From positions 1 to 64,000 of the forward strand of contig JAADHU010000031.1 of NCBI GenBank assembly GCA_013151645.1: a stretch of DNA of 64,000 bases. Reading direction: 5' to 3'. This document shows, piece by piece, positions 34,369-55,815 of this stretch (positions are counted from its first letter, which is position 1; every line of letters begins with the position of its first letter). The notes below the pieces were generated by a model that was not told where the DNA came from, did not search any database, and saw nothing but the letters and a program-made list of their open reading frames with translations. The DNA is from Gammaproteobacteria bacterium (GTDB taxonomy: Bacteria; Pseudomonadota; Gammaproteobacteria; Steroidobacterales; Woeseiaceae). The position numbers and the translations under genes are program-made.

Positions 34369-35481
34369 CTAGGCAGCGTTACCCGGCGTCTTCAGGAAAC
34401 GCCCATTGGGCCATAGCGGTAGAGCATGCAGCGACAAGCTTGCAAGACGCTTATTCGTCACAAATAAATCGCAACCGCTTCGCTCCAGCGCTCCCCATCG
34501 CTTCTTGTGGCTGGAATATCCGCCAAGAAAATCATACTCTGAAACGCCTCGATTGCACAAATTCTGAATGACGTGGACCCGGAGGGCTGATCCGGCCCCG
34601 GCTGAATAATCCGGATCGATACCCTCCAGAAGCTGAGAAAAAACATCGTTGTATATAAACCCGTATTGCGCGGCGACGGGTCTGCCGTCTATCTGCAATA
34701 TATACAATTTCAGCCATCCTTCATTGAGCGCCCTTGATGCGAATAGATCATGAAACTTCTTGAGCATCGGCAGTTTGGCAAATGATCCGCGTTGACCGAG
34801 TTGGTTCCATCGCTTTTGGTGAAGCTCCGTCAGAATCAACAACGCGGCCGCGAGATCTTCGTCATTCGACGGTTCCGCGATGTGAGCGGACTGCATTTGA
34901 AGTATGTCCTGGTCCGCGCGTTTCATTGAGCGCCGTTGATTGGCCGATGCGTTCGCAAGAAAGTCTTCGAACGTATCGGGTAGTGGCAGGTAACTGAACG
35001 GTTTCGTTCGGCCGCGGAGCGATAGTTGAGACTGATCGATAGTATCGACGACAACTCGTGAACCGGCAGACCACTGTGGAAAATCATGCAGCCAAACGAA
35101 GTCCCACTCTTCTCGGTGTTGATGCAGGACATTCATCATCTGAGCCAAGACATCGTTTTCGGTGAGTCGATCGACGATGAAGTTACCGTATTCGGCAGCG
35201 GTGTTGTCATCGCCGATTATCCGGAGACAACTGCTGTGAATAGCGCCGAAAAGACGGTATTCGCTTTTGTAAAATGGTGCGATGCCAACCAATCGCCGGT
35301 TCTCATCTCGAATCGCAATGACGAATAACTGGAGGGGCGAACCGCACACTGCCAACCAGGTAGATAACCATTGCCAGGTGAGAAAAATAGTATTGGATCG
35401 ACTTCTTTCCAGGACGCTGTTCCACTCACTTGAGAGTGCGTGCAGTTCGTCGACCGTTCTGAAGATGTCGTACTTCAACAC
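34369..35481 (-). CDS. FemAB-like GNAT acyltransferase (exosortase-associated/CelD type)
   Basis: This 370-residue protein belongs to the GNAT/FemAB group found in exopolysaccharide loci. The C-terminal acyltransferase core shows GRPVAAQYGFIYNDVFSQLLEGIDPDY, then SALRVHVIQN (pyrophosphate-loop equivalent), and DFLGGYSSHKKRWGA. The acyl donor could be acyl-CoA or aminoacyl-tRNA; the sequence does not decide. It is convergent with the heparinase-like gene and has a 508-bp upstream gap, so it is probably monocistronic. Related proteins are common near XrtA, and a role in modifying the polymer or a cell-surface partner is inferred. Confidence 0.78.
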   Translation of the reverse strand: MLKYDIFRTVDELHALSSEWNSVLERSRSNTIFLTWQWLSTWLAVCGSPLQLFVIAIRDENRRLVGIAPFYKSEYRLFGAIHSSCLRIIGDDNTAAEYGNFIVDRLTENDVLAQMMNVLHQHREEWDFVWLHDFPQWSAGSRVVVDTIDQSQLSLRGRTKPFSYLPLPDTFEDFLANASANQRRSMKRADQDILQMQSAHIAEPSNDEDLAAALLILTELHQKRWNQLGQRGSFAKLPMLKKFHDLFASRALNEGWLKLYILQIDGRPVAAQYGFIYNDVFSQLLEGIDPDYSAGAGSALRVHVIQNLCNRGVSEYDFLGGYSSHKKRWGALERSGCDLFVTNKRLASLSLHALPLWPNGRFLKTPGNAA

Positions 35482-35989: not shown

Positions 35990-37669
35990 ATGATTCGAAA
36001 AACGCAGATCGCCTCAGAGAAGCGGCCGTCCGGGTCGAAGATTGACCAATTTCGCAATCCGCCTACGGGACTGCGAAACGTACAGCAGCAGGTTCTATCC
36101 GAGGTCCTCCGAAGAAATTCAAAGAGTCGGTATGGTCAAGTGCACCAGTTTGAGCAGATCACCGATACCGGCGAATACCGGCGCCTGCCGTTCATGACGT
36201 ACGACCGGGTGGAAGGTGTTGACGCGTACTGGGATGAAGCGGCCAATTTTACGTCGGATCGACTGATTGCCTATTTTTTGACCAGTGGGTCTTCATCGAC
36301 GCCGAAAAGGATACCGGTAACATCGAGTCTGGTGCGTGAAAAGGCCAAGGCGTTCGGTCTTTTTTGGGAAGCTATTTATACAGCTCACCCGAAGCTGAAG
36401 AATGGCTATTTTATTGCCAATTTCGCCGATTCAGGCAGTTCTACGCGAAACTCGGACGGCATTGTTGAGATTGCGGAGACTACCTTCTGGAACCAGCGTA
36501 TGCAGGGTTTTCAGGACTCGTCCAGATGGCCGGCAGGTAAATACCTGACGGCCATCAAGTCGGCGGAGTTGCGTTATTACGCCGCCGCAAGGCTTGCTTT
36601 ACAAAGTCCATTGCACTGCATGATGAGCCTGAACCCAAGCACATTGGTAAAGTTCTGTCACGTAATAGAAGCCCATTCGACGGATCTCGCTCGAGGCATG
36701 CAGGACGGGTTGTGGGGTTTGGCCGAACTGGATTCGAAGATGGATCTCCCTGCGGAACTGACAAACGCACTGCAGAAAAATGCTGAAGCGGCGGGGAAAC
36801 TGACAACGGCCTGCGAGTCTCGGGGCGTCTTCTTCCAGTTACGGGACATTTGGCCGGAATTGGAATTGGTCATTTGTTGGCAATCGGACCTTGTTGAGCC
36901 GTATCTTCGTTTATTGAGACAGTACACCGAAGGCGTTAGCTATCGCGACTATATTACCCAGTCGAGCGAGTGCGTGATTGCCGTTCCGGTTGCAGATGAC
37001 GTTTCGGGCGGTCTGCTCGCATATAGCTCCCACTTCTTTGAATTTATTCCCGAGGATCAGGTCGATAAAGTGTCGCCACAGACCGTTCCTGCGTGGGAAG
37101 TCGAGGTGGGGCGGAAATATGAGGTTGTAGTGACGACCGGAGGCGGCCTCTATCGATATCGTACGGGTGACTGTGTTGCGGTTAACGGTTTCGACGGAGA
37201 AATACCACAGATCGGTTTTCAATACAGGCTTGGCAGGACGTCGAGCATAACCGGGGAAAAACTGACGGAGCAACAGGTCCTTACGGCGCTCCGCGAGGCA
37301 AGGTCACCGAATATCGAGGTTTCGAATATTGTCGTTTTTCCCCGGACGGGTGCTCAGCCACACTACGCGGTCATGTTGCCGAGAACCGCAGTAGACGGTG
37401 GCGATCTCGAAAACGTTTTGGCGAATTGGCTGTCCGTATTCGATCGGGAGTTGGGAAGGGCCAACGGCGAATATAAGGACAAGCGCGAGTCGTTGCGCCT
37501 TGGAGGACCCTGTGTGCTCTTGATCGGTGAAGCCGAATTTGATTCGTTTCAGTCGAAGAACAGGGCCGCTCATGTTGGCGACGATCAATACAAGCCAGGG
37601 GTATTGAGAAAAGATCGCGATCTTGAGCGTGGAATTGGCGCAACTGAAGAATACCGTGCGAATCGTTAA
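35990..37669 (+). CDS. GH3-type acyl-adenylating (amino acid conjugating) enzyme
   Basis: This 559-residue protein has the GH3 auxin-responsive fold of ANL adenylating enzymes. The phosphate loop reads YFLTSGSSSTPKRIPVT near residue 95, the central block is YSSHFFEFIPEDQ near 345, and the YRYRTGDCVAV hinge is near 385. Plant GH3 enzymes join carboxylates to amino acids via acyl-AMP. Bacterial relatives are less studied. It is the first gene of a five-gene run; the next frame overlaps its 3' end, so the genes are co-translated. It may couple the cluster's acid product to an amine. Confidence 0.82.
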   Translation: MIRKTQIASEKRPSGSKIDQFRNPPTGLRNVQQQVLSEVLRRNSKSRYGQVHQFEQITDTGEYRRLPFMTYDRVEGVDAYWDEAANFTSDRLIAYFLTSGSSSTPKRIPVTSSLVREKAKAFGLFWEAIYTAHPKLKNGYFIANFADSGSSTRNSDGIVEIAETTFWNQRMQGFQDSSRWPAGKYLTAIKSAELRYYAAARLALQSPLHCMMSLNPSTLVKFCHVIEAHSTDLARGMQDGLWGLAELDSKMDLPAELTNALQKNAEAAGKLTTACESRGVFFQLRDIWPELELVICWQSDLVEPYLRLLRQYTEGVSYRDYITQSSECVIAVPVADDVSGGLLAYSSHFFEFIPEDQVDKVSPQTVPAWEVEVGRKYEVVVTTGGGLYRYRTGDCVAVNGFDGEIPQIGFQYRLGRTSSITGEKLTEQQVLTALREARSPNIEVSNIVVFPRTGAQPHYAVMLPRTAVDGGDLENVLANWLSVFDRELGRANGEYKDKRESLRLGGPCVLLIGEAEFDSFQSKNRAAHVGDDQYKPGVLRKDRDLERGIGATEEYRANR

Positions 37670-38759
37670 ATGTGAGCTTTTTCGTCTCCAGACTCCGTTT
37701 CGCAGGGCGTTTAAGCATGCGGCAGCAGAGCGATCTCATGGTGACGCGATTATCGTCAACGTCGTCACCGAAAACGGTGTACACGGTTTTGGAGAAATCC
37801 AGGCGCGGCCATACGTCACCGGCGAGAACAATGATGATATTTGGCAGACTCTTGCACCGGGTATCGCGAAACACGTCGTTGGTTGCGTTGTTTCAACCAG
37901 GCAAGAGGTTTATGAGCAACTAGGCGCGAGCGCCGCGTACGAAGAGCGACCCGCGTTGGTCGGCGGCTTCGACATAGCAGTTCTAAATGCGTTGGAACTT
38001 GAGCATGGTCTCGATTGGCCGAAAATTTTCGGGCCCGCAAGACAGAGGAAAGCCGAAAAGTGCCTGACCGTCGGAGAAGACTATTCCGGCGATGACCTCC
38101 GAAACCAGGCCCGCCTCGCCCGCCTGGGTGGGTACGCCGTCGTCAAGTTGAAAATAAGCGGTGTCGAAGATGTCGCGCGTATCGCAGATCTACGACAGTG
38201 GGTCGGCGACGATATCGCGCTACGTCTGGATGCTAACGGACAACTGGTTTTTTCCTCCGCAAGTGAATTGCTGGATCAATGTGCCGGTTACGGTATCGAG
38301 TCGATTGAAGAGCCGCTAAACAAGTCTGCACCGGATCTTGTTCGCGAACTTACCGAACTGTATCGCAAAACCGGCGTAGCGTTGATGGCGGACGAATCGA
38401 TTTGTACCGAGGCTGATTTGGCCCGTTTTGCCGGCAAGGGTGCCTACCAGATCGTAAATATTCGCATTGGCAAATGCGGCGGAATCAGTGGTGCGGCGGC
38501 AGTCCTTAAAGCGGCGCTCAATGCCGGTCTTTCCATTGCGTCGGGGACAATGGTGGGAGAAACCAGCGTGATGTTGCGTGCCAGTCGCAAGATGCTCGCT
38601 TACTGCAACGAGTTGAAATACGTTGAGGGTCTTGATCAATCGAAGAAACTGCTGCAAGCTCAGGCACTTGTAAACGTGGACGGTAATCCGAGCCGTCATT
38701 TCGAATGGCTGGCAGATATCGCAAGAAAATACGTCGTAGGATCGAAAACTGCCGAATAG
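37656..38759 (+). CDS. Enolase-superfamily enzyme (MLE/dipeptide-epimerase/OSBS-like)
   Basis: This protein of 367 residues has the enolase capping domain and TIM barrel. GTG 37656 overlaps the preceding stop and gives the family start (VRIVKCELFRLQTPFR); an upstream TTG 37623 is possible. Catalytic-type residues are the KxK motif (VVKLKIS, Lys164/Lys166), metal ligands Asp192 (RLDANG), Glu218 (IEEPL) and Asp in MADES. The partner position usually read as Lys in NIKxxKxGG is Arg270 here (VNIRIGKCGG), with Lys273 two residues on. Reactions in this subgroup start by proton abstraction next to a carboxylate. The exact substrate is unknown. Confidence 0.82.
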   Translation: MRIVKCELFRLQTPFRRAFKHAAAERSHGDAIIVNVVTENGVHGFGEIQARPYVTGENNDDIWQTLAPGIAKHVVGCVVSTRQEVYEQLGASAAYEERPALVGGFDIAVLNALELEHGLDWPKIFGPARQRKAEKCLTVGEDYSGDDLRNQARLARLGGYAVVKLKISGVEDVARIADLRQWVGDDIALRLDANGQLVFSSASELLDQCAGYGIESIEEPLNKSAPDLVRELTELYRKTGVALMADESICTEADLARFAGKGAYQIVNIRIGKCGGISGAAAVLKAALNAGLSIASGTMVGETSVMLRASRKMLAYCNELKYVEGLDQSKKLLQAQALVNVDGNPSRHFEWLADIARKYVVGSKTAE

Positions 38760-38826
38760 CGCAAGTTTCCAGCGTGAATATCTCGATAAACTAGGCGCGC
38801 CACTAAACCAAGAGAGTGAGAGCACA

Positions 38827-39066
38827 ATGACCGAGAAGTCGAAACAAGAGCAAATTCAAGAATTTATTGGAACATTGAATCCTGCTGCTAAGGATGGCAT
38901 CGATAATGGCGCCAACCTTCTGGAGGAAGAAATCGTGGATAGTGTGGCGATGATGGACCTCATTGTCTGGTTTGAGGAAAACTTCAACATGACGATCGAT
39001 CCTGACGACTTGACACCCGATAATTTCGGGTCAGTCAATGCGATGGTGGCCTACCTGGAGCGCTAA
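38827..39066 (+). CDS. Acyl carrier protein
   Basis: This 79-residue acidic helical protein has the 4'-phosphopantetheine attachment motif EIVDSVAMMDLIVWFE (Ser39). The C-terminal half (LTPDNFGSVNAMVAYLER) matches the third and fourth helices of ACPs. It is flanked by an enolase-like gene 67 bp upstream and an acyl-CoA ligase-like gene 14 bp downstream. A free ACP beside a ligase suggests the intermediate is loaded onto the carrier and processed there. The DS motif is a variant of the usual DSL. Confidence 0.9.
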   Translation: MTEKSKQEQIQEFIGTLNPAAKDGIDNGANLLEEEIVDSVAMMDLIVWFEENFNMTIDPDDLTPDNFGSVNAMVAYLER

Positions 39067-39080
39067 CGCGCCGTTCATCA

Positions 39081-40601
39081 ATGCGTCTTGAAGAAGCACT
39101 AGGCGAAATAGCGGCGGAATGTGCCAGCAAGACGGCGTTGGAAGTTTGTGGCGCTTCGTCAATTAGTTTCGCCGAACTCGTCGATCGTAGCGACGCAGCA
39201 GCATGTTTTTTACGCCAGAGCGGGGTCACACCCGGTAGTCGTGTTGGTATTCTGTCGCGTCACGATCCGGAAGCCGTCGTATTATTCTGGGCGGTGTTCA
39301 AGGTTTCCGCCATCGTGGTTTGGCTGAACGATGACGCGGGTAGCGAGACGCTTTCTACCATTATTGACGATGCCGATCCGATCGTCATATTTGCGCAGTC
39401 AGATCGACATATGGACATGCTACATTCGGTATGTGGCAGCCGTGACGGACTGATGCGGATTTCTGAGATCTCGTCCAGTGCCAAAGCGAATTTCTCAGTC
39501 GATCCAACGGGCGACGAAGCCGGACCCGATGCTGTTGCGGCGATCGTCTATACGTCAGGTAGTAGCGGTAAACCCAAAGGCGTTTGTCTCACTCATAGAA
39601 ATCTATTGACCGTATCGAATGCCGTCATCCAGCATATGCCGATTACGAGCGATGACTCGTACTTGATGGTTGTTCCGATGCACTATGTCCACGGATTGAT
39701 GCAACTATTGGTTCACGCGCTGGCCGGCGCAACCGTTTTTTGTACGAACAGCTTCGCGTTTCCGAGAAAAATCGTTGAACTCCTTCGTTCGACCGGGGTG
39801 ACGGGATTCTCCGGTGTTCCGTTTCACTTCAATTCACTGGTGAGTCGCGGAAACTTTCTGGAAGCGGAGCTGCCTTCGCTAAAATGGTTAACCGTGACGG
39901 GTGGCAAGCTCGCAAATAGCCGGGTGATCGAAATCATGGATAGCTTTCCGAAAGTCGATTTCCATATAGCCTACGGGCAGACGGAATGTGCGCCGAGAGC
40001 GACCGCCCTCGATCCTGGAAAATTGAGAAGCAAACCAGATTCAGTTGGCTCTGCGATTCCGGGAGTGAATATCTTGTTGTTCGGCGATGATGGCCAACCC
40101 GTTTCGGCGGGAGAAGTAGGCGAGGTCGCCGTTGAAGGTGCGAATGTAATGGCGGGATACTGGAGAGATGCGGAAAGCACTGCGAAGGCGCTTGATTCGG
40201 AAGGGCGCTTGTTGACCGGTGACCTGGGTAGATTCGATGAGGATGGCGATCTGTTTCTGGTTGGCAGAAAATCGGAAATGATAAAAGCGGCTGGTGAAAG
40301 GATCATTCCGGAAGAGCTGGAGAAGGTTCTTACTTCGCACAATTTCGTGGACGATGCGGTAGTGGTCGGAGTTACCGATAGTATGTACGGCCAGCGAGTT
40401 GTCGCCCATCTATTGCTTTCTGACCGCTGCGAGAGCATGGACAACAACGAAGTAATTGCGGGTGTTCGAAGCCATTGCCTGGAAGCAGTGCCCTTTGCGC
40501 GTGCACCGCGTGAGTATAATTGCTGGAAAGCGTTTCCGATGAAATCCAATGGCAAGCCGGATCGCCAGGAGATTGTAAGGACGAGTCAGGCTGGTGACTA
40601 G
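39081..40601 (+). CDS. AMP-dependent acyl-CoA/acyl-ACP ligase-like enzyme
   Basis: This 506-residue ANL-family adenylating enzyme activates a carboxylic acid as acyl-AMP and probably passes it to the neighbouring ACP or to CoA. Motifs are YTSGSSGKPKGVCLTH (157-172), the substrate region YGQTECAPRA near 300, the hinge LTGDLGRFDEDG near 380, and the catalytic C-terminal lysine in SNGKPDRQE. It lies 14 bp after the ACP gene. The stop overlaps the GTG of the UbiD-like gene by 8 bp, so they are co-translated. The size is that of aryl/acyl ligases, but substrate type is unresolved. Confidence 0.87.
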   Translation: MRLEEALGEIAAECASKTALEVCGASSISFAELVDRSDAAACFLRQSGVTPGSRVGILSRHDPEAVVLFWAVFKVSAIVVWLNDDAGSETLSTIIDDADPIVIFAQSDRHMDMLHSVCGSRDGLMRISEISSSAKANFSVDPTGDEAGPDAVAAIVYTSGSSGKPKGVCLTHRNLLTVSNAVIQHMPITSDDSYLMVVPMHYVHGLMQLLVHALAGATVFCTNSFAFPRKIVELLRSTGVTGFSGVPFHFNSLVSRGNFLEAELPSLKWLTVTGGKLANSRVIEIMDSFPKVDFHIAYGQTECAPRATALDPGKLRSKPDSVGSAIPGVNILLFGDDGQPVSAGEVGEVAVEGANVMAGYWRDAESTAKALDSEGRLLTGDLGRFDEDGDLFLVGRKSEMIKAAGERIIPEELEKVLTSHNFVDDAVVVGVTDSMYGQRVVAHLLLSDRCESMDNNEVIAGVRSHCLEAVPFARAPREYNCWKAFPMKSNGKPDRQEIVRTSQAGD

Positions 40602-41964
40602 TCAGAAAGGCAGCGAGCTGGACCTTCGTGCATACCTTAACTACGTAAACGAGAAGGGCAAGAGCGCGTATCTCCAGGTTGAAAAGTCTATATCGCCACG
40701 CTGGGAAACGACAGCAGTCGTGAGCGGGCTCGCAAACCGAATGCGCAGTCCTGTTGTATATTTTTCGAACGTCAAAAACAGCACGATGCCGGTCGTATCC
40801 AATGTGTGTTGTTCAATCGAACGAGTCGCGAACAGTGTTGGAAGATCGGGCGAAGAATTGAACCGGAATTTTTCGGATTCGATGGAAAACCTCGTTTTGC
40901 CTGAAATTATTCACCGCCAGAGTGCGCCTGTTCGGGAAATTACTGTTGATGCCGAAGATTTGTCGCTCGGTAGTTTTCCCCAGTTTTACTATACGGCGAC
41001 GCAATCGCATCCGTACATAACGGCCGCATTGATAGTTGCGCGCGATCCCGATTCCGGCGCGCACAATATTAGTTTTCATCGGCTGATGATCTGTAGTGAC
41101 AATTCAGTGGCTATTTTTATGACACCCGATGGCCATCTGGATCAAATTTGGCGGAAGAATGTCGCTCAGGGTCGGGCAACACCGTTGTCAGCGGTCATCG
41201 GTGTGCACCCGCTCTGGAGCTACGCGAGTCTTGTTTGCGGCGCCCTGGACCATGATGACTATTCAGTCCTGGGTGCGGTACTTGGTGAAGCGATTCAACT
41301 TACGCACGGTACAATTGATGAGCAGCTTCTGGTGCCTGCGCGAGCAGAAATAGTATTGGAAGGACAGATCGAACCTTCAATGAGTCACGATGAAGGGCCA
41401 TTCGGCGAGTTTCTCGGCTATGTTGCCAGTCGGGAGTCAAGACCGGTCATTCATTTTCAATCGATGAGTACCCGGAAGAGTCCGATCTATCAGGATGTGG
41501 TCGCTGGTGGAATAGAGCATCTGACGATGTCGAGCATCGCATTGCGTGCTCGGCTTCATCGGAACTACTTTTCCGCCAATGCCGCCATCACGGATTTTCT
41601 GTTACCAGCCGCGCTTACGTTGTTTCTTGCGATCGACGAGACGCGACAACCGGATTTCGATGCCGGGCGTCTGATGAAAAAACTATTGGATGAGGAGCGC
41701 TATCTGAAGCAAGTGGTGTGTTTCGATTCCGGTGTTGACTTGCGAAAGCAATCCAGCGTCCAGTCCGCGATGGCGTGCCATGTTCAGCCTGATCGGGATA
41801 TCCGGATAATCGGAGACTACACGGGCAATGGTATTGATCCATCGGAAGTTGACGGCAAGACTGCAAAAATGGCGATTGACGCGCGAATCAAGACCGAAAT
41901 CGTGAGGAATGAGTTACCCGAGGAGTTTCTTTCCCGGTTCGATCTTTCGGTATGGACTGGTTAA
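40594..41964 (+). CDS. UbiD-family prenylated-FMN decarboxylase
   Basis: This 456-residue protein matches UbiD/Fdc-type decarboxylases, which use prenylated FMN to decarboxylate aromatic or alpha,beta-unsaturated acids. Visible blocks are HRLMICSDNSVAIFMTPDGH, IWRKNVAQGRATPLSAVIG and the active-site strand SHDEGPFGEFLGYVAS, where the acidic residues are expected to be catalytic. It starts with GTG inside the ligase gene. The cofactor is made by a UbiX-type prenyltransferase, which is not in the window and must come from elsewhere. It is the last gene of the forward run and lies convergent to the SDR gene, 21 bp apart. Confidence 0.87.
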   Translation: MTSQKGSELDLRAYLNYVNEKGKSAYLQVEKSISPRWETTAVVSGLANRMRSPVVYFSNVKNSTMPVVSNVCCSIERVANSVGRSGEELNRNFSDSMENLVLPEIIHRQSAPVREITVDAEDLSLGSFPQFYYTATQSHPYITAALIVARDPDSGAHNISFHRLMICSDNSVAIFMTPDGHLDQIWRKNVAQGRATPLSAVIGVHPLWSYASLVCGALDHDDYSVLGAVLGEAIQLTHGTIDEQLLVPARAEIVLEGQIEPSMSHDEGPFGEFLGYVASRESRPVIHFQSMSTRKSPIYQDVVAGGIEHLTMSSIALRARLHRNYFSANAAITDFLLPAALTLFLAIDETRQPDFDAGRLMKKLLDEERYLKQVVCFDSGVDLRKQSSVQSAMACHVQPDRDIRIIGDYTGNGIDPSEVDGKTAKMAIDARIKTEIVRNELPEEFLSRFDLSVWTG

Positions 41965-41985
41965 GCCGACCGAGTCGGTGGTACA

Positions 41986-42762
41986 TCAGCGTGCTGTTCT
42001 TCCGCCATCGACGTTTAGCATTTGACCCGTGATAGAGTGGCTTTCCTCGGCCGCCAGATAACAAACGAGAGATGCGACGTCTTCCGGCGTCACCAGTGAT
42101 CGAGTCGGAGTATCTTTTATCAAGTCCTGCTCATGCTGTTCCAGGCTGACGCCTTTGATCTTTGCTCGAGCCTGCTGAGTCTGATGGAACAGTTTGGTTC
42201 GTACGTAACCGGGTTGCACGGCATTGACCGTAACCCCGGTCCCTGCGACTTCTAGCGCGAGCGACCGAACGAATGCCGCCACACCCGCTTTTGACGCAGC
42301 ATAAATAGCGTTGAACGGTGCACCGACTTCGGCAGAAATTGATCCGATATGCACGATACGTCCGGAGCGCTGTCGAATCATTGGCCGTAGTGCAGCCTGG
42401 CTGATGATGAATGAACCGAGAGTATTCGTATTGAGCACCTTTTGCCATTCGGCAACCTTGCCCAATAATACCGGTGCTATATAGCTGATTCCGGCACAGT
42501 TCACCAGGCAGTCAAGCCGTCCATGGTTAGCCACGATGTCGGTAACGGCGGCTCGACAGCTGCTCTGGTCAGTGACGTTGAGCACGGCCGTCCCCAGAGA
42601 ACCACCGGTTTCCGCCAGTACGCCGCGCGCACTTTCTACTCTCTCCTTCGTCATACCCGAGACAATGACTGTGGCACCGCTTTCAAGCATTTGTCGACAT
42701 ATCGCGAGACCAATGTCTCCGCAGCCCCCTACAACGAGGCAAACTCGATTTTCTAACCCCAT
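41986..42762 (-). CDS. Short-chain dehydrogenase/reductase
   Basis: This 258-residue Rossmann oxidoreductase has a cofactor loop (VVGGCGDIGLAI, residues 10-21), a variant of TGxxxGIG. It also has NCAGISY near 88 and the catalytic Tyr-Lys pair in IYAASKAG near 155. The C-terminus is VDGGRTAR. The absence of an acidic residue right after the loop leaves NAD versus NADP open. It is the last gene of the minus-strand run; its start overlaps the flavoprotein stop by 10 bp. It probably reduces a carbonyl or oxidises an alcohol of the pathway intermediate. Confidence 0.9.
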   Translation of the reverse strand: MGLENRVCLVVGGCGDIGLAICRQMLESGATVIVSGMTKERVESARGVLAETGGSLGTAVLNVTDQSSCRAAVTDIVANHGRLDCLVNCAGISYIAPVLLGKVAEWQKVLNTNTLGSFIISQAALRPMIRQRSGRIVHIGSISAEVGAPFNAIYAASKAGVAAFVRSLALEVAGTGVTVNAVQPGYVRTKLFHQTQQARAKIKGVSLEQHEQDLIKDTPTRSLVTPEDVASLVCYLAAEESHSITGQMLNVDGGRTAR

Positions 42763-44474
42763 GGGCTAATCCGGATATCACCGGGTCGATCAAGCCACCC
42801 GTTCTCTTCGTTTATCCAATGCTTTCTCAAGCTGATTTCGTTTTTCTTGTGTGTCGCGAAAATATTGGTTAGCCATTTACCGTCATCACGGTCAGGGTAA
42901 TCACTGCGATAGTGCGAGCCGCGGCTTTCCTTGCGCATATCAGCCGCTTCGATAATAACTTCGGCTACATCAAGAAGGTTGCGTTGTTCGTACGCGAGCG
43001 CGATATCGAACGGGTTACCAATCCCCAGTTCGTTCTTCAGTCGCTGCCGATCACGTTGCACGTATTTTCTGGCCTCCGAAAGACTTGCGGCATCTTTTTC
43101 GACGGTCAGCAATTGCCACATTTTCCGCTGAAGTTCTCGTCGCATTACGTCAATGCCCAGCGCGCCTTTGCTCGACTTGAATCCCCGCAGTACGTCGAAC
43201 ATCGCACCGGCGTCGTCGTCCGCTATCGGGCCAGGACTGCCTTGATTGCAGAGATCACCGGCATGCCGACCGGCACGCCAGCCAAATACTTGTGATCCAC
43301 CTAACATCGTGCCGCCAAGACGATCAGCGCCCTGCCACCCCGAGGTTTCACCTATCGCGTAGAAGCCGCGAACGCCGGATTGGGCGTTCTGGTCGATGCG
43401 TATGCCGCCGTTGCTTGTGTGGTGATGAATCTGCACCTGAATCATGTCATTTTTGATGTCCATGCCTCGCGCCAGCATGAATTCTTCAAAGAGTTCCGGC
43501 TCGAAGCCGCGTTTCGCGTGCGATAGATCAAGATAGATCGCATCAAACTCTGTTCCTCGACCCGCGATGACCTCTGCCTTGATGGCTCGATCGAGATTCA
43601 GAGCGGCGTCGCGACAACTAACGGGCCAATGAGCCGCTTTCAGACGGCAGCCCTCTGCCATCGATTCTGCATCCTGGAAGTAATTCTTAAGGAATGCTTC
43701 ACCGTGGACGTTGAGTAACCTGTACGGATCTTCCATTTCGTAAAGCATCACCATCGTCTGCTGCGGCCAGGTGGTAGCCAGTCCCTGCTGCATAAACTCC
43801 ATGTTGAACAATTCAGCACCGGCACGCATTGCCATAGCGTAACCGTCACCGGTGTTGCCAGAAGGGTTAAAACTGTACTGGAATAGCTGCCCGACGCCGC
43901 CGGTGGCCATGATCACCGCACCGGCTTCGACAACAAACGGTTCTCCGTGATCGTCTACGCCGACGGCGCCGACACATCGATCGCCGTCTACGACGAGGTC
44001 CGTCAAGTTGGCTTGTTCCAAAACCTGCGTGTTCGTTTGTTCAATAATCGCTTTCTGAATTTCAACAATTCGGTTCGTTTTCCCCTCACTCGCGCGCCCT
44101 TCCATTGTCGCAAGCATCTTGCTTTGGAACTCCATTCCCATCGTTTGCAGACGCTTGAGAGCATCGGAAACCTCATCGACGAATATCTTACAGAGATCCG
44201 GATCGGCCATGCCGAGCCCCGCCTGGATCATGTCAGCCAACACGGCATCGGGTGGGTTAAAAAAACTGCCTTTTGGACCGACTGTCCGTATCGTCCAAAA
44301 ATCACCGATCGGATTGGAAGTCGCTCCGGCGCCACGAACGCCCGGTACACCGAACTTTCCTTTTACGGCAAGCATTGTTCTGGCGCCGGTTTCATGCGCA
44401 GCGATAGTCGCAGCAGTCGCAGCGCCACCACCACCGACTACCAGCACATCCGTGTTATACCTTCGGATCTCCAT
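42753..44474 (-). CDS. FAD-dependent oxidoreductase, FrdA/SdhA/NadB-like
   Basis: This 573-residue flavoprotein is of the fumarate reductase/succinate dehydrogenase flavoprotein type. The FAD-binding GGGGAATAATIAA loop is near residue 15. The middle contains IMATGGVGQLF and QIHHHTSNGGI near 350, matching the conserved His/Thr active-site part. The C-terminal domain has ADMRKESRGSHYRSDYPDRDD, typical of the SdhA helical domain. The iron-sulfur and membrane subunits expected for a respiratory complex are absent, so a soluble dehydrogenase or desaturase role is more likely. The gene is 3 bp after the methyltransferase stop. Confidence 0.85.
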   Translation of the reverse strand: MEIRRYNTDVLVVGGGGAATAATIAAHETGARTMLAVKGKFGVPGVRGAGATSNPIGDFWTIRTVGPKGSFFNPPDAVLADMIQAGLGMADPDLCKIFVDEVSDALKRLQTMGMEFQSKMLATMEGRASEGKTNRIVEIQKAIIEQTNTQVLEQANLTDLVVDGDRCVGAVGVDDHGEPFVVEAGAVIMATGGVGQLFQYSFNPSGNTGDGYAMAMRAGAELFNMEFMQQGLATTWPQQTMVMLYEMEDPYRLLNVHGEAFLKNYFQDAESMAEGCRLKAAHWPVSCRDAALNLDRAIKAEVIAGRGTEFDAIYLDLSHAKRGFEPELFEEFMLARGMDIKNDMIQVQIHHHTSNGGIRIDQNAQSGVRGFYAIGETSGWQGADRLGGTMLGGSQVFGWRAGRHAGDLCNQGSPGPIADDDAGAMFDVLRGFKSSKGALGIDVMRRELQRKMWQLLTVEKDAASLSEARKYVQRDRQRLKNELGIGNPFDIALAYEQRNLLDVAEVIIEAADMRKESRGSHYRSDYPDRDDGKWLTNIFATHKKNEISLRKHWINEENGWLDRPGDIRISPWG

Positions 44475-44477
44475 AGT

Positions 44478-45647
44478 CTATTTAACCGCCGTAACAATAG
44501 CGGCATATTGATCCGGAAACCCTTCTTCGAGTTTATCGAGGTCCGGACAGAACTCAGCCTCACGGAAACCGGCGAGCTTGAGGACGCGTATCCAGTTGTC
44601 CGGAGATAAGTAGCAATGCATCGGCCGGTAATCCGGATTGCGAATAGCGGCAGTTCGGTGATAAATGGACAAATTCAGAGTCAGCTCCCTCGGTGCCATA
44701 TCGGTCGGTGTGAGGCGAATGCGCTCGGAAAACAGTACTCTGCCACCGGGTCTCAAAGTGTCCCTGGCGCTTTTCAAGAAGGCGACGATATCCTTCGCAA
44801 CGTGTGCGGCATTAACCGCATAGATCAGGTCAACGCTTTCTTTTTCAATTTTTTGTTGCTGAAGAGGGATATTCAGGTCGGCAAATCGCCAGTCCGTATT
44901 GACGTCCGGATAGGCCTTGCGAATTTCCTGTCGTGTCGACATGATGAACTTCTGACTGATATCAGTGAAAGTATATTTATGAATACGATCGAGTTCATTT
45001 TTCGCGCCAAGATGTCGAAATAAATTTCGGATACCACTTCCGGTCCCACCACCGATTTCCAGTATATCGCCGGCATCGAACATCCCGTCGATCGCGACCG
45101 CACCCATCACGCCATGTACGTTCTGTAACGGATCTATATTGGTTGCACGGAACCACAGATCTTCCCATTCAGGCTCGCGACCGGACAGGATTCGATCAAG
45201 AAAGTCAGGATCGTCTTTGAGAGCGTATTCGAAATGGTCATCGCCAAACTGAAGAAATTCCAGTGTCGTCAAATATTCCTCGCCAAGCTCTGACACTTTC
45301 TCTCGAATTTGTTCGAGACTGCCGGCATGATTTGGAACGTTGTTGACGTGATGATATTTGACAGCATTGCCTACGAGCGTTCTCGCGACAAAGGCATAGC
45401 GCGAAGACAATCTTTCAAGCACCGCATCCAGGGTGATGTGTGCGCTCTCTACGTAGCCGAGTTTCCCCGAAAGTTCTTGCGGACTTGTTGGCGCGCGGAG
45501 GTGGTTCTTAAAACCGAGTCGGCTATAAATAGCAAGGAGATGGGCATTTAATGCCTGCTGTAATAGTGCGGAGGCTTTGACAATATCCTCGGCAAACAGC
45601 ACATCCCGGCACCATTGTGTATAGGCTTTACGCATGTCGTCCTGCAT
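44478..45647 (-). CDS. Class I SAM-dependent methyltransferase with N-terminal extension
   Basis: This 389-residue protein carries the class I SAM motif ILEIGGGTGSG at 195-205, followed by FTDIS and LNIPLQ, and the post-motif segment DLIYAVNAAHVAKD. About 150 residues before the fold are helical and probably bind acceptor or lid. This resembles stand-alone methyltransferase domains of polyketide/nonribosomal pathways. The start ATG has a GGAGAAA ribosome site 7 bp upstream. It is the second gene of the minus-strand run. Acceptor (O, N or C) cannot be read. Confidence 0.83.
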   Translation of the reverse strand: MQDDMRKAYTQWCRDVLFAEDIVKASALLQQALNAHLLAIYSRLGFKNHLRAPTSPQELSGKLGYVESAHITLDAVLERLSSRYAFVARTLVGNAVKYHHVNNVPNHAGSLEQIREKVSELGEEYLTTLEFLQFGDDHFEYALKDDPDFLDRILSGREPEWEDLWFRATNIDPLQNVHGVMGAVAIDGMFDAGDILEIGGGTGSGIRNLFRHLGAKNELDRIHKYTFTDISQKFIMSTRQEIRKAYPDVNTDWRFADLNIPLQQQKIEKESVDLIYAVNAAHVAKDIVAFLKSARDTLRPGGRVLFSERIRLTPTDMAPRELTLNLSIYHRTAAIRNPDYRPMHCYLSPDNWIRVLKLAGFREAEFCPDLDKLEEGFPDQYAAIVTAVK

Positions 45648-45725
45648 AGAAATTTCTCCACCGATTGCATGTGTCCGCGTTGGGATGATCCCTTTACGCG
45701 ACGAAAAACGATGCCAACTGCGTCA

Positions 45726-46496
45726 CTATTCGCCATGATTACCGGAATAAATCAGCCATTCCAGCATCGCTTGAGCTGTCCTTTCAGGATCGTCAAATTG
45801 TAACCCGTGTTCTCCGCTAATTGTGATTTTTCGCTTCAGCGCCGCCTTCGAGATCTCGAAGGCTTTTTCGTGTTTTGCAATGTCGGCCAAACGATCGTCG
45901 CTGGCCAGCACCATAAGACTTGGTATTCTCAATCGGACCCAGCGTGGTGCGAGCATAGTTGTCATTTTGATCATTACGGCGTTGAATCGCGGTGAAACCG
46001 CCGTCGTACGAAGGCGGTCTGGCACGATGTAATTCTCATACGCAGGACCACTCGTAAACCGGTCTATCGGTACCAGCGGTTTTTCCGTCGGTTCAGACGA
46101 TTCGCCCGCAACGATGTCGGCATTCGCGATGTCGCTTGCGGGAAATACTGATGGAGCGATCATGATCAATGATCGAAAAGCGTCCGGGTATTTCTCAATA
46201 CAGCAGATCGCATAGGTTGCTCCCCAGCAAAATCCAGCGATATGAACAGGCGTTCCGGCACGGGCGTACTTGAGGCGAATTGCAGCGACATCCTCGATCA
46301 AGGAGTGAGCATCTTCAGCATCGCCGGGGGATTCGGTGTTGAGGCCCACGCCGCGTCGATCCGGGCAGATTACCTCTATGTTGTTCTTCGCCAGTCGTTC
46401 GGCAATCGGCTTCAGCCAGTCTGAATGACTGACAACGCCATGCAGTAAAATCACCTGAGCATTTGTCTGTGCAGGACGCCACCATCGTACGGCCAC
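45726..46496 (-). CDS. Alpha/beta hydrolase with Cys nucleophile motif (start uncertain)
   Basis: This is an alpha/beta-hydrolase of 256 residues from the GTG at 46496. The nucleophile elbow reads AGFCWGA (Cys90), like the GxCxG elbow of dienelactone hydrolases. The acid (VLASDDRLAD) and His (GEHGLQFD) positions follow. The reading frame stays open upstream to 46568, and the extra 24 codons read like the family N-terminus (FTAGTETIRAFDGYPVA). That stretch holds no ATG, GTG or TTG, only a CTG at 46547. The true start may be non-standard, or the 5' part may be damaged. It is the first gene of the minus-strand run, 78 bp before the methyltransferase. Confidence 0.75.
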   Translation of the reverse strand: MAVRWWRPAQTNAQVILLHGVVSHSDWLKPIAERLAKNNIEVICPDRRGVGLNTESPGDAEDAHSLIEDVAAIRLKYARAGTPVHIAGFCWGATYAICCIEKYPDAFRSLIMIAPSVFPASDIANADIVAGESSEPTEKPLVPIDRFTSGPAYENYIVPDRLRTTAVSPRFNAVMIKMTTMLAPRWVRLRIPSLMVLASDDRLADIAKHEKAFEISKAALKRKITISGEHGLQFDDPERTAQAMLEWLIYSGNHGE

Positions 46497-46568
46497 AGGG
46501 TAACCGTCAAATGCACGAATAGTCTCTGTTCCGGCGGTGAACGTCAGTGTATTGCCCGTTAAACGTTG

Positions 46569-46920: not shown

Positions 46921-48300
46921 CTAATTCACCGTATTGCCACTTGCTCCCGGTAGCGCGTTGATATCGGCCTGAGTCGCCGCTGCCGTATTGCCACAAATCA
47001 CGGCTCCGCTGTTGGTGAAAGAATTCTCAACTAATGTTCCAGCTTCACAGACAGACCGGGCTTCGTAGTTGACGGCGGCCTCAGTGATATTTTCGAACGA
47101 ATTTCTTTCCACGAAGAGTGAGAAATTTGAGCGCCAGTTCTGGTTGATTCCGCGGTTCGCATTGCGACAGGTATTGTCAGTAAAAACGGTATTGAAACCG
47201 TCTTTATCAAGTTGAAGACATCTTGAGACCAGGTCGTGGAAATTGTTGCCGGCGATCGCTATTTGTATGCCTTCTTCAATTCGAATCGCATTCACAGTGT
47301 TGTAGATTTCGTTGTTGATAATCTGCACATTGGTCGGTCCGCCGGCTGACCCAACAAGAATCGCGCTACCGTCCGAGCCGCTGGAGAAAACGCCGCATCC
47401 GGACCCATCGTCGAAACACCACATTTCGCCTGCTGGCGCCCTGACTAAGCTATGAAAAACATTCCCTTCGATGATGACGTCTTCGATGTATTTCAGATCG
47501 ATGCCATTTTCCCGATCGGAATAAAACAGATTCGCACCGATATAAACGTTTCGTGGCGGGTTTGCGGAGCAGAGGTGGCATGCCTGGAATCCGTCACCGC
47601 CGTTGTGATGTATTTCATTGCGAAGTATCCAAATACTGTCGGCTCCGGATGCGACGAAAATTCCATGTCGATCGTCGCCCTGATTGTGGTGAATCTCGGA
47701 ATCAGTGATTACCATATTGGTTCCACGAAAAGACGATCCGTTTTTTCCACGAAGGTTGCGGATTTCTACATTTCGGAAGATGTGATGATCGCCGTTCGTT
47801 CGTGGTTGTATATTGTCGAATATTGTTCCGACAAAAATACACCATGATCCACTGATGGAGAATACGTCGTTATCTCCCTGCAACGTGCCGCCGACAATAA
47901 ATGCGGGGTTCTGTTCGGTTCCGGAGCAGCTGATGCTCAAATCCTGATTGACGTTTTGAAGAGTGAAGTTCAGCACTTCGCCGGCGCCAATTGTCGCTGG
48001 CAGAATACCTGTGGCAGTCGCCGTACCAGGTTCCTGTTGGTATTCAAACGGGATGTCCGGAATGGAGGTTATTTCCCCGACTGGTGGTGGCGGTGGGGGA
48101 GGCGGCGGCGGCGTCGTTGGCGGCGGTGGCGGCGGTGTTGTTGGCGGCGGCGTCGTCGGCGGCGGTGTCGGTGGCGGTGTCCCGGAGGACGGCGGCGGGG
48201 TCACATCGGCAACGGCCACTGGCTCGCCGAGATCCAGACAACCACCCAATGCCAGTGTGGCAATACAGATAGACAATGACAGTATTGTTTTATATCTCAT
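46921..48300 (-). CDS. Beta-helix lipoprotein with proline-rich linker (c-di-GMP riboswitch-controlled)
   Basis: This protein of about 459 residues is the paralogue of the secreted beta-helix protein at 27648. A lipoprotein signal with ALGGC near residue 20-25 is followed by a proline/threonine-rich linker (PPPTTPPPPPPT type, near 35-85) and then a parallel beta-helix. Shared blocks are HHNQGDDRHG, DRENGIDLKYIEDVIIEG and WCFDDGSGCGVFSSGSDG. The ORF opens with GTG at 48315; ATG 48300 (MRYKTILSLSI) gives the best signal. The linker suits spanning a surface layer, so an extracellular polymer-binding or lyase-like role is likely. A GEMM riboswitch lies about 150 bp upstream. Confidence 0.82.
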   Translation of the reverse strand: MRYKTILSLSICIATLALGGCLDLGEPVAVADVTPPPSSGTPPPTPPPTTPPPTTPPPPPPTTPPPPPPPPPPVGEITSIPDIPFEYQQEPGTATATGILPATIGAGEVLNFTLQNVNQDLSISCSGTEQNPAFIVGGTLQGDNDVFSISGSWCIFVGTIFDNIQPRTNGDHHIFRNVEIRNLRGKNGSSFRGTNMVITDSEIHHNQGDDRHGIFVASGADSIWILRNEIHHNGGDGFQACHLCSANPPRNVYIGANLFYSDRENGIDLKYIEDVIIEGNVFHSLVRAPAGEMWCFDDGSGCGVFSSGSDGSAILVGSAGGPTNVQIINNEIYNTVNAIRIEEGIQIAIAGNNFHDLVSRCLQLDKDGFNTVFTDNTCRNANRGINQNWRSNFSLFVERNSFENITEAAVNYEARSVCEAGTLVENSFTNSGAVICGNTAAATQADINALPGASGNTVN

Positions 48301-48447
48301 AACATCCATTCCCACGTGACCTTGACCAAGCGAATTAAATGCTACCGGCCTCGTTTAGCAGCACTTTGGGTCGATCGTCAGGGGAGACTAAATGACAGCA
48401 CAAGAACTGCCTGAGATACTGCGTTACGCAGGCGAAAATCGCCTGGT

Positions 48448-48536
48448 TCTCTGGCAGCCCCGCTATCATAGGTACAACCCTTAGACCGGAAGCTTTGCGT
48501 CCCTGCCTTTCAGCAGGTTTGCCATTTTCAACACAC
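48448..48536 (-). promoter_or_regulatory. Class I cyclic-di-GMP (GEMM) riboswitch
   Basis: Reading the minus strand from about 48536, the sequence shows the GEMM-I landmarks in order: GGCAAACC (48516-48523), a GAAA loop (near 48506-48513), GGGACGCAAAGC (48492-48503), a CTAAG element (48480-48484), and a closing GATAGCGGGGCTGCC (48453-48467). This is the GGCAAACC / GGGACGCAAAGCC / GGTAGCxGGG plan of the family. A short hairpin, CAGGCGA-TTT-TCGCCTG (48429-48445), follows. It lies upstream of the beta-helix lipoprotein at 46921 on the same strand. Whether it turns expression on or off is not visible. Confidence 0.85.
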
Positions 48537-51656: not shown

Positions 51657-52850
51657 ATGAAAAGCAATCGATCAGTTGCCGCGATTTTCGGCTCGTCAGA
51701 TTGTGCCTATTTCATGAGCAGTGGGCTTTTAAAGCGGGAAATCGATATCGTTGTGTTCGCGAGCAAGACGCGCGATTCATTCGGAAACATTTCGATAGAG
51801 CAATGTCCGTCCCCGGATTCGCCGACGCAGTTGGTTTCATTCTTGAAGTCGTATGCGAACGGATGTCCCGGCGTGGATTTTATTGTCATACCTTCTTCAG
51901 ATGAGTATGCAATGTTTTTCGCCAATTATCATTCGGATCTCGCACCGCGATTTCAAATTCTCTCGCCACCGCTTCAGTCAGTCAGAATCTGTGCAAATAA
52001 GCTGGAATTCAGCGAGTTTTGCGAAAAAAACGGGATCGATGCACCCAGGTCTTACGGCATAAATTCTGAACGGGAATTTCAGAATCATGCGTCCAGTATC
52101 GACTATCCCGTAATAGTTAAGCCGATAATAGCTCGTGGGCTACCGGCATCCATCGTGCCGAAAGTTATTCTTGCAGAGGATCATGAAGAGCTACTTGCTC
52201 TTGGCAAGAAAATCTGGGCATTGGATCGACCGCTTTTTTTCCAGGAACTCATACCGGGCAGTCGAGAAGCACTGGTATTTGTTGGTGGTGTTGTTCGTTC
52301 CAAGGATAGCGAAGAGAAAATATTCGTGGGTACGAAGATCATGGATCACCCAAAGCTTGGCGGGAATACGACGTTTGCGAGGCTGCAATGGCAGGAAGAG
52401 GCTGTGACCAGTGCTCGCAGTATCTTGAGGGAATTGGAGTTTGATGGCCTATTTGACATTGAATTCAAACGCGACCATCGCGATGGCTTGTTGAAGGTTA
52501 TAGAGGTGAACCCGCGCATCGGCCTTTGGCACCGGATCAGCGACGACGGTGAAATGGATATTATTTCCTATTACTATTCTCTGCTCACCAATTGCCATGA
52601 GCGTAGCCGAAGTAGTTACATTGCGCATGTTGACCATCGAAAATGGATGTCGAAACACCGTCACTTAATCGCACTTGTGGAATCGCACGGCATTGTATTC
52701 GGAAGTGGCCGGTGGTTTGTAGACCTGTGTAGACGTCCGCAAGTCCGCGACTGGAATTTTCGAAACTGGAGACGGAATTGGAAGTGCGTGAAAATTGTAG
52801 TCGGTCGATTTCGCCAGCTAGGCGTCTCGGTTCTGCTGCTCGGAGATTGA
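51657..52850 (+). CDS. ATP-grasp domain protein (carboxylate-amine ligase-like)
   Basis: This 397-residue protein has an ATP-grasp fold. There is an N-terminal Rossmann-like part (AAIFGSSDCAYFMSS) and the ATP-binding strand YPVIVKPIIARG near residue 143. The acid-metal block IEFKRDHRDGLLKVIEVNPRIG is near 275. Members join a carboxylate to an amine or thiol through acyl phosphate. It is followed 1 bp later by a GNAT-like gene and has no obvious partner peptide nearby. A role in coupling an amino acid or modifying a surface molecule is inferred only from the family. Confidence 0.78.
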   Translation: MKSNRSVAAIFGSSDCAYFMSSGLLKREIDIVVFASKTRDSFGNISIEQCPSPDSPTQLVSFLKSYANGCPGVDFIVIPSSDEYAMFFANYHSDLAPRFQILSPPLQSVRICANKLEFSEFCEKNGIDAPRSYGINSEREFQNHASSIDYPVIVKPIIARGLPASIVPKVILAEDHEELLALGKKIWALDRPLFFQELIPGSREALVFVGGVVRSKDSEEKIFVGTKIMDHPKLGGNTTFARLQWQEEAVTSARSILRELEFDGLFDIEFKRDHRDGLLKVIEVNPRIGLWHRISDDGEMDIISYYYSLLTNCHERSRSSYIAHVDHRKWMSKHRHLIALVESHGIVFGSGRWFVDLCRRPQVRDWNFRNWRRNWKCVKIVVGRFRQLGVSVLLLGD

Positions 52851-52851
52851 A

Positions 52852-53544
52852 ATGAATAAAGGGCGAGGAATTCTGGCTCGAATCCGAAATCGAGAGTATC
52901 GATATATTTTCAAACGGATATTTCCGACCGACAACAATATCTTCTATGCGGGTCGGCAAGTGATTTTGGGGCAGAAAGATCTCGAAACCATTGAAAGGTA
53001 CTACGAGCTATTCAAGAAGAAATTTAAACACCAGATTGTTGCCGTCGACGAAGAAATGCGCGATCGACTGTTCGAAGCATTTCCAGACGACAAATCGAAG
53101 TTTGAACGTCGTCTTGCGCGTGGCGCAAACTGTTACGTCTCGATTACGGACAGTCAAATTTCTGCGTATGTCTGGGTTCAACCACCAGCAAGGGCTTATG
53201 AGACCAATAGTTTGTGGGTTTTCAAACCAAAGAATGTCCATTCGATGTGGTTCTTCGATATTTACGTGTTGCCACAGTTTCGGCTAAAAGGTCTTTTCGG
53301 ATATTTGTCCGGGGCGGTACGTTCGATCTATAGCGACGATAGTCCGGTGGTGGTTTGCGCGGAGACATCCTATAACAATCGAAAGTCACTTCGAGCCCAT
53401 TTCAGTATGGGGTATGAGATAACGCACGTTGTCGATTTTGTATCTATTTTTGGATTAAAGATTTACCTGGCGAGGCAATTGAATCCAAAGAATTTGAGGA
53501 TTTCGTGCCGGTTTGAGCTAAACCCCAAAGCGTACCGGCTTTGA
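52852..53544 (+). CDS. GNAT-family acetyltransferase-like protein
   Basis: This 230-residue protein has a GNAT-like core: WFFDIYVLPQFRLKGLFGYLSG near residues 140-162 resembles the V-x-x-x-x-R/Q-x-x-G-x-G/A acetyl-CoA loop. CAETSYNNRKSLRAHFSMGYE near 178 matches the fourth motif (N-x-x-S-x-x-x-x-x-x-x-G-F/Y). The start ATG is 1 bp after the ATP-grasp stop, so the pair is an operon. Acceptor is unknown. Confidence 0.75.
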   Translation: MNKGRGILARIRNREYRYIFKRIFPTDNNIFYAGRQVILGQKDLETIERYYELFKKKFKHQIVAVDEEMRDRLFEAFPDDKSKFERRLARGANCYVSITDSQISAYVWVQPPARAYETNSLWVFKPKNVHSMWFFDIYVLPQFRLKGLFGYLSGAVRSIYSDDSPVVVCAETSYNNRKSLRAHFSMGYEITHVVDFVSIFGLKIYLARQLNPKNLRISCRFELNPKAYRL

Positions 53545-55617: not shown

Positions 55618-55815
55618 ACCATCCGGGTGGTGTTCGACGAATCAGATATCAATAGTCAGTGTATCAGCGTAAAGAATCAACTGCGCGCCAAAGTGGGGTT
55701 TTCGAGCGACGTTGAGACGGCACGTCTTTCCGCTCCGAAACCCGTGCCGGCGCAGAATCTCGGCTATGCGGGTCTGAACGAGTTGGATGTCGGTCTTGAA
55801 CAAACCGTGCCACAC

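Follow-up and report, generated by a model that had tools for sequence, protein, structure and literature searches.

Bacterial GH3 enzymes are numerous, but of the 20 papers listed among 331 literature matches a single one treats a bacterial GH3 pathway, that of OlsH, which is described along with OlsI, an O-acyltransferase of the alpha/beta-hydrolase superfamily, for the ornithine lipids of planctomycetes (excerpts of PMC12493201). N-acyl amino acid synthases have been linked to PEP-CTERM/exosortase loci, e.g. those of the stieleriacines (excerpts of PMC7293339). The locus described here resembles both in part and lies in a stretch of 64,000 nucleotides (the window) from a Gammaproteobacteria bacterium of the Woeseiaceae (assembly GCA_013151645.1, contig JAADHU010000031.1, positions 1 to 64,000). 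Its nine genes, at 35990-46547, apparently constitute one conserved and unrecognised biosynthetic cluster, one of many orphan clusters, that is surprising for its mix of enzymes and for its spread.

A sequence-only reading of this DNA had placed nine genes of these families here in two convergent runs, and the open reading frames (ORFs) and Pfam matches bear this out. The ORF listing of the window shows the region filled by nine ORFs in two convergent runs; within each run neighbouring genes overlap or have 3 to 78 bases between them, and all nine exceed Pfam cut-offs:

35990..37669, plus strand, GH3-family acyl-acid amido synthetase, 559 amino acids (aa; PF03321/PF23571/PF23572)
37656..38759, plus strand, enolase-superfamily enzyme of the muconate-lactonising/dipeptide-epimerase subgroup, 367 aa (PF13378; longest ORF from 37623, 378 aa)
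38827..39066, plus strand, acyl carrier protein (ACP), 79 aa (PF00550; Ser39 in a DS motif)
39081..40601, plus strand, AMP-dependent acid ligase, 506 aa (PF00501/PF13193)
40594..41964, plus strand, UbiD-family prenylated flavin mononucleotide (prFMN) decarboxylase, 456 aa (PF01977)
41986..42762, minus strand, short-chain dehydrogenase (SDR), FabG-like, 258 aa (PF13561/PF00106)
42753..44474, minus strand, FrdA/NadB-like flavoprotein of a distinct, very conserved subfamily, 573 aa (PF00890/PF02910)
44478..45647, minus strand, predicted stand-alone polyketide-type C-methyltransferase, class I, 389 aa (Methyltransf_12)
45726..46547 (46496 with a GTG start), minus strand, alpha/beta hydrolase with a Cys nucleophile (PF12146, 92 bits)

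GTG 37656 is the likeliest start of the enolase-type gene, giving a 14-base overlap with the GH3 gene and a product of 367 aa like its homologue at locus L031 (L numbers denote loci and G numbers genomes). The hydrolase gene probably starts at CTG 46547, the end given in the sequence-only reading and upstream of the first standard start codon (GTG 46496), because the extra N-terminal residues resemble those of homologues. Promoter- and terminator-like sites are no commoner than in shuffled sequence. Among the matches listed (the best 25 for the ligase, SDR and FrdA-like protein), none of the nine proteins reaches a curated NCBIfam cut-off.

The OlsH/OlsI system is nearest in logic, with a GH3 enzyme forming an N-acyl amino acid, an alpha/beta-hydrolase partner and an ACP family in NCBIfam; unlike it, the cluster adds enolase-type, UbiD, FrdA-like, SDR, ligase and C-methyltransferase genes. 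An amino-lipid pathway of the OlsH/OlsI type, in which the GH3 enzyme would form an N-acyl amino acid, the hydrolase would be an O-acyltransferase drawing on the ACP and the other enzymes would remodel the head group, is consistent with these likenesses and with the resemblance of the hydrolase model to monoglyceride lipases (Z 27.8, 247 residues). It is nevertheless improbable, as the GH3 protein scores 80.3 bits against a cut-off of 620 for OlsH (NF052613), the ACP 21.6 bits against 130 for the OlsHI-associated ACP (NF052616), and what the excerpts of PMC12493201 say about OlsHI includes no enzyme of the enolase, UbiD or FrdA-like kind.

The ligase has as its nearest NCBIfam model, among the matches listed, the exosortase-A-associated ligase TIGR03098, and the window adjoins an XrtA locus, but the score is 287.7 bits against a cut-off of 592; the cluster's other families are not known as usual partners of that ligase. 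The stieleriacine-type systems share with the cluster a suspected N-acyl amino acid product and a place beside exopolysaccharide/exosortase genes, and differ in that the amide of the cluster would presumably be made by GH3, a parallel rather than membership; the window genome, 98% complete, has no match to the TIGR03694 acyltransferase. Membership in the OlsHI, TIGR03098 or TIGR03694 systems was thus rejected, cut-offs not being reached or matches being absent. A menaquinone-like logic, with resemblance to MenC, MenE and MenH, was dropped because the matches fall far below NCBIfam cut-offs, and the butenolide pathway of a Nannocystaceae strain was set aside on the CybE/CybF chemistry described in excerpts of PMC8777810. 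Open-licence full text, searched for UbiD with GH3, with or without ACP, and for wider combinations of the families, holds no description of the cluster that we could find; one wider combination brought up three papers, in none of which UbiD occurs, and the main text of the Paraliomyxa genome paper mentions no GH3 and no UbiD. The same set in a characterised pathway, which would have run counter to the sequence-only reading, was not encountered in that literature.

GH3 matches are present in 21 of 99 related genomes, including the window genome with its single match, and only one is close (56% identity), in Woeseia sp. OFTM247 (G009, L031). This strain has the nine genes in the same two convergent runs, with the whole cassette inverted relative to gltX. 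The FrdA-like enzyme is found at E <= 1e-70 in four of 396 genomes of the order (window genome included). A collection of 84,980 species genomes was scanned with a FrdA profile by way of two heptapeptide patterns; 148 stretches matched and 20 of them encode FrdA-like relatives, 59-79% identical. These 20 loci are a lower bound because the patterns are specific. Their record titles span six phyla (Gammaproteobacteria, Chloroflexi, Planctomycetota, Gemmatimonadota, Acidobacteriota and Myxococcota/Deltaproteobacteria), with three titles giving no phylum or only proteobacterium; those named include Woeseiaceae, Exilibacterium and another member of the Gammaproteobacteria, and Paraliomyxa and Nannocystaceae of the Myxococcota/Deltaproteobacteria. 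GH3 matches in plasmids (6 records) do not exceed 35% identity, and the FrdA matches there (391 records; first listed 32%) all stay below 60%. The cluster is spread sporadically, probably by horizontal transfer.

Gene layouts at these loci were read by tblastn with the window genes and further representatives. Besides the window, five of the 20 loci hold all nine genes together (L031, L034, L040, L045 and L046; the SDR match of L040 is partial). Eight genes, with no methyltransferase seen, stand together at L036, at L048 (9.5 kb contig, ligase match in two pieces), in Paraliomyxa (L071/L072) and in Nannocystaceae (L043/L086, 25 kb contig), and the other 11 loci, many of them on short contigs, have incomplete sets. 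The order GH3-enolase-ACP-ligase-UbiD is constant wherever these five genes occur together. In a type I layout the SDR, FrdA and hydrolase genes lie past UbiD on the opposite strand, with the methyltransferase among them or before GH3; in a type II layout the SDR and hydrolase genes precede GH3 and FrdA lies past UbiD. Elsewhere the set is divided among contigs: G403 has GH3 alone, a UbiD-ligase-ACP-enolase-SDR run, and FrdA with the hydrolase and a second SDR; G406 is split similarly; and in G436 one contig carries GH3 with the enolase and ligase genes, and a second carries the hydrolase, ACP and UbiD genes.

The two runs are linked by more than position. GH3 is present at E <= 5e-199 in 16 of 19 FrdA-bearing genomes (G396/L031 not repeated); of the rest, G398 has only a weak GH3 match and a cluster contig that stops inside the ligase gene, and G402 and G415 have no GH3 match. 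In the Paraliomyxa family, 29 genomes searched with both profiles comprise eight with GH3 and FrdA, one with GH3 only, none with FrdA only and 20 with neither (Fisher P 2.1e-6, kinship ignored), and the two genes co-occur even where they are unlinked. A UbiD of the cluster type was found in all six genomes checked, G436 included. For seven genes compared at 8-10 loci, pairwise identities are correlated in every one of the 21 gene pairs (r 0.68-0.95), each with the lowest permutation P attainable in that test, 0.0005, a correlation that partly reflects common descent because the species tree was not subtracted. The FrdA-like protein changes least: its relatives are 61-79% identical to the one in the window, and for the other six proteins the range is 27-69%. 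Two unrelated operons that have become neighbours by accident would agree with the opposite strands of the runs, but the runs are found together in other phyla, in several layouts and even when unlinked, which speaks against a chance run and makes that explanation hardly tenable. Co-occurrence across genomes, on which the sequence-only reading had staked its grouping of the two runs, thus comes out in its favour.

Several loci depart in detail from these layouts. The cluster of Woeseia OFTM247 contains two insertions, a GNAT-like gene and a remnant of an SDR gene (L024 9554-11004), and the FrdA-like gene of the metagenome-assembled genome G112 (L029/L032, 813-2531) has one in-frame stop, from either pseudogene formation or sequencing error. 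Three myxobacterial loci have a related gene between UbiD and FrdA (L042 4163-6244, L043 7863-9950 and L044 7782-9944, the last encoding a Na/H-exchanger/TrkA-C, KefB-type, protein). Four have a related gene past FrdA on the opposite strand (L035 12634-13131, L042 8367-8897, L043 12894-14045 and L044 12033-12704), a low-molecular-weight phosphotyrosine phosphatase in the three tested. In Exilibacterium the GH3-to-UbiD run (L088, G404:C116, 1774-10291) follows trpG, trpD and trpC on the same strand after a short gap, and a second, distant GH3 stands elsewhere with hydrolase and enolase-type genes (L096, G404:C82, 905-13059), adjoining a reducing type I polyketide synthase and a thioesterase.

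The GH3, enolase-type and UbiD proteins belong to the families to which they had been assigned from sequence motifs, and their catalytic residues are intact. In the GH3 protein the N-terminal, central and C-terminal domains all score above 23.6 bits, motifs that we take to serve adenylation are invariant in nine sequences, and the nearest solved relative is plant JAR1 (4epl, 174 bits), followed by other GH3s. Among solved structures the enolase-type enzyme is nearest to 1jpm (191 bits), 3jva (185) and 2p88 (184), the first two being an L-Ala-D/L-Glu epimerase and a dipeptide epimerase. Residues K175, K177, D203, N205, E229, D257 and K284 (numbered in the 378-aa ORF) are invariant in nine sequences and include what we take to be the two catalytic lysines and the Asp/Glu/Asp metal ligands of dipeptide epimerases. 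The DxD motif of those epimerases binds the ammonium group of the substrate. Here the two kinds of enzyme part company: E/D-G-[LIK] follows a conserved GE, and the second Asp is missing in 9/9 (aligned by eye, the profile alignment ending short of the motif). A substrate without a free amine, e.g. an N-acyl amino acid, is therefore plausible.

UbiD residues N158, R163, H181, E267 and E272, which we take to contact prFMN/metal and to form the Glu-Arg-Glu set, are invariant in 12 sequences, and UbiX is encoded in the window genome, as expected of a prFMN decarboxylase. The best solved relative is 6h6x (344 bits), presumably HmfF, a furan-2,5-dicarboxylate decarboxylase. A His of HmfF sets furan specificity, according to excerpts of a paper on a related enzyme (PMC7976604). 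UbiD and 6h6x have an EHL His in common at the aligned place, so that a heteroaromatic substrate is possible; the gene contexts differ. The kinship with this decarboxylase, together with a muconate-cycloisomerase-type enzyme and an acid ligase, families that also occur in degradation pathways, could suit a catabolic cluster degrading an aromatic or furan acid. Such a role is very improbable, given that the dedicated ACP, the polyketide-type C-methyltransferase and the GH3 amide ligase point to biosynthesis and that clustering of the locus ORFs revealed no recognised degradation gene (flanks annotated in part; oxygenases not searched for).

The FrdA-like protein is exceptionally constrained, with 201 of 573 positions invariant in 18 sequences (gaps and X ignored). 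Aligned to the solved SdhA 7d6v, it has other residues in 18/18 at the places of His232 and Arg287 and retains H352 and R385 in 18/18 at those of His355 and Arg390, the four being the dicarboxylate ligands of E. coli FrdA. With two of four ligands lost, a role in fumarate or succinate metabolism is unlikely and was rejected; the protein may still hold a single carboxylate.

The methyltransferase (METHYLTRANSFERASE) offers the best clue to the chemistry. Its predicted model (predicted local distance difference test score, pLDDT, of 92) matches the C-methyltransferase of CurJ (5thy) with Z 34.4 and a root-mean-square deviation of 3.3 over 361 aligned residues, followed by AprA MT2 (32.1), DszA (31.8), citrinin synthase (31.3) and CalH (28.3), and the likeness spans nearly the whole model. 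Methyltransferases outside the polyketide group have Z below 20, apart from the ladderane-cluster enzyme 8hd2 (22.9); the values for this model, as for the hydrolase, come from re-ranked Foldseek matches within the listed families. Profile matches in the PDB are polyketide-pathway methyltransferases in seven of seven cases (CurJ E 2.9e-16), and N279, H282 and E308, invariant in 10 sequences, align with the NxxH and Glu of CurJ and DisA. A His-Glu pair and an ACP-bound beta-ketoacyl substrate are reported for such enzymes in excerpts of PMC9821293. In fold, in the His and Glu and in having a carrier protein nearby the gene resembles CurJ, DszA, CalH and AmxMT1; unlike them it is stand-alone, with no ketosynthase among the nine genes. 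It is thus predicted to be of the polyketide C-methyltransferase type, and at loci that have the gene one expects a chain that is bound to a carrier and has an acidic alpha carbon. Because of this type and its reported carrier-bound substrates, an ACP-bound intermediate is likely.

Among the remaining proteins, the ACP has D38 and S39 invariant in 12 sequences, and the ligase, compared in an alignment of 12, is presumed to load it. The SDR has its catalytic Ser, Tyr and Lys (S141, Y154 and K158) invariant in 15 sequences. The Cys nucleophile that had been proposed for the hydrolase is found in every homologue compared, as a G-x-C-W-G motif in 13/13 sequences, with one His and several Asp also invariant; such a nucleophile suits acyl transfer as well as hydrolysis or release of a thioester.

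The gene set, the intact active-site residues, the C-methyltransferase type, the Cys nucleophile, the co-occurrence and the enrichment of polysaccharide genes described below were obtained by computation; from here we infer substrates, step order, product and destination. The AMP ligase may load a carboxylic acid onto the dedicated ACP, the SDR would set the beta position as ketone or alcohol, and the beta-ketoacyl chain on the ACP would be methylated at its alpha carbon by the C-methyltransferase, where present. Release or transfer of the acyl group could fall to the Cys hydrolase, and GH3 would use ATP to couple an acid to an amine; as with plant GH3 and OlsH, this amine is most likely an amino acid. 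From the N-acyl amino acid so formed the enolase-type enzyme might abstract the alpha proton, leading to epimerisation or elimination. That it would follow GH3 is suggested by the adjacency and overlap of the genes, the enolase-type gene usually coming directly after GH3, and by the second, distant GH3-hydrolase-enolase set of Exilibacterium. The FrdA-like enzyme would desaturate next to a carboxylate and UbiD would remove that carboxylate, an order of desaturation before decarboxylation that the chemistry suggests. The product may belong to surface-polysaccharide (sometimes exosortase) loci, as a decoration or a co-made compound.

This whole scheme, a conserved and sporadically spread unit making an amide-type small molecule linked to surface polysaccharide, has in our estimate a probability of roughly 0.45. 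Tentatively, and with the odds against it, the cluster would define a new class of carrier-protein pathway without a ketosynthase of its own, in which GH3 works with an enolase-type enzyme, a fumarate-reductase fold put to a new use and a prFMN decarboxylase to yield a decarboxylated (enamide- or heteroaromatic-type) amide that is part of, or acts with, surface polysaccharide in at least six phyla. From the sequence-only reading, the single unrecognised cluster has stood, an ACP-bound intermediate is likely and the polysaccharide neighbourhood recurs above a simple chance bound; the remaining steps of its pathway stay at the level of proposal, including the loading of an acid on the ACP by the ligase; its methylation step is retained and narrowed to a predicted C-methyltransferase. 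In scattered phyla, and often close to genes for surface sugars, the cluster brings GH3 together with an ACP, a C-methyltransferase, a prFMN decarboxylase and the tightly constrained FrdA-like subfamily. The FrdA-like motif is a sequence marker for finding it, and the gene set is defined for expression and assay.

The link to surface polysaccharide is seen first in the left flank, where the cluster had been noted to sit beside a polysaccharide locus:

7054-34303, left of the cluster, XrtA/PEP-CTERM exopolysaccharide locus
34369..35481, minus strand, GNAT/FemAB-type acyltransferase adjoining the cluster (PF13480, 84 bits)

The locus bears this out, with genes for PrsK, exosortase, PrsT, export, chain-length and tyrosine-kinase proteins and a sugar-phosphate transferase. 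The flank also has glycosyltransferase-like genes, three sulfotransferases, MatE-type and Wzy_C-type membrane proteins, a deacetylase-related gene (PgaB 64.5 bits, cut-off 321.9) and a heparin-lyase-related gene with a score far under its cut-off; the sulfotransferases, the lyase- and deacetylase-related genes and the Wzy_C-type protein suggest a sulfated polysaccharide. The cluster may bear on why some exosortase/exopolysaccharide loci carry small-molecule genes.

Sixteen genomes were searched for two polysaccharide markers, sugar-phosphate transferase (PF02397) and glycosyltransferase (PF00534), and proximity was counted on 12 GH3-bearing contigs of at least 25 kb, window included (G398, G406, G407 and G413, with shorter contigs, were left out). 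The nearest listed marker is within 20 kb on 6, 30 kb on 7 and 40 kb on 9 of the 12, whereas chance would give no more than 1.5, 2.3 and 3.1 (P 0.0012, 0.0015 and 0.00012). These expected numbers are plain upper limits that take no account of contig ends, and the distances refer to the matches listed, beyond which weaker ones may exist. In G404 the nearest marker is at 30.1 kb. Exosortase exceeds its cut-off in nine of 20 genomes and is on the GH3 contig only in G396, G401 and the window, so it is not the common factor.

GNAT-like genes stand beside or inside the cluster at seven loci (window, L031, L033, L036, L040, L045 and L046). They are mostly below Pfam cut-offs and only two groups (L031/L033 and L046) are clearly related; because of this heterogeneity GNAT was rejected as a strict tenth member, and the gene at 34369..35481 is a possible partner. 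The cluster could on this evidence serve to decorate the polysaccharide, its acyl group being moved onto free amino sugars of the exopolysaccharide by the GNAT/FemAB-type acyltransferase or the Cys hydrolase, and the markers within 30 kb, the recurrent GNAT-like neighbours and a deacetylase-related gene that could expose amines in the window would all fit. We regard decoration of this kind as possible and on balance unlikely: most GNAT groups are not clearly related, three genomes (G400, G408 and G411) have no close polysaccharide marker among the matches listed, and GNAT is superfluous if GH3 already makes amides.

Several observations weigh against the scheme favoured here, an amide-type product of GH3 linked to surface polysaccharide. 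GH3 is apart from the enolase gene in G403 and G406, and a profile search of the G436 genome, which has GH3 and UbiD, gave no FrdA match. The methyltransferase is found at only 10 of 21 loci (window included), and none was seen within about 60 kb around L036 or 80 kb around the Paraliomyxa cluster, these loci rather than whole genomes being covered; methylation may thus be optional. The nine genes include no ketosynthase that would account for a beta-keto chain. The kinship of UbiD to 6h6x suits a desaturated amino acid no better than an aromatic acid, and the FrdA-like protein has Arg252 near the lost Arg in 17/18 sequences, where the alignment is uncertain. Among the matches listed, the cluster contigs of G400 (Paraliomyxa) and G408 have no polysaccharide marker and the nearest in G411 is 50 kb off.

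The right flank of the cluster in the window begins with two features beside its minus-strand run:

46921-48315, minus strand, right-handed beta-helix gene
48450-48533, minus strand, c-di-GMP-I riboswitch (84.6 bits), upstream of the beta-helix gene

Further right are gltX (glutamyl-tRNA-synthetase-type) and two tRNA genes. To the right of gltX, 51657-62423 holds a possible second small-molecule set, with ATP-grasp, nonribosomal-peptide-synthetase-like (adenylation and carrier, 56986-60306), alpha/beta hydrolase and Acyl_transf_3 acyltransferase genes.

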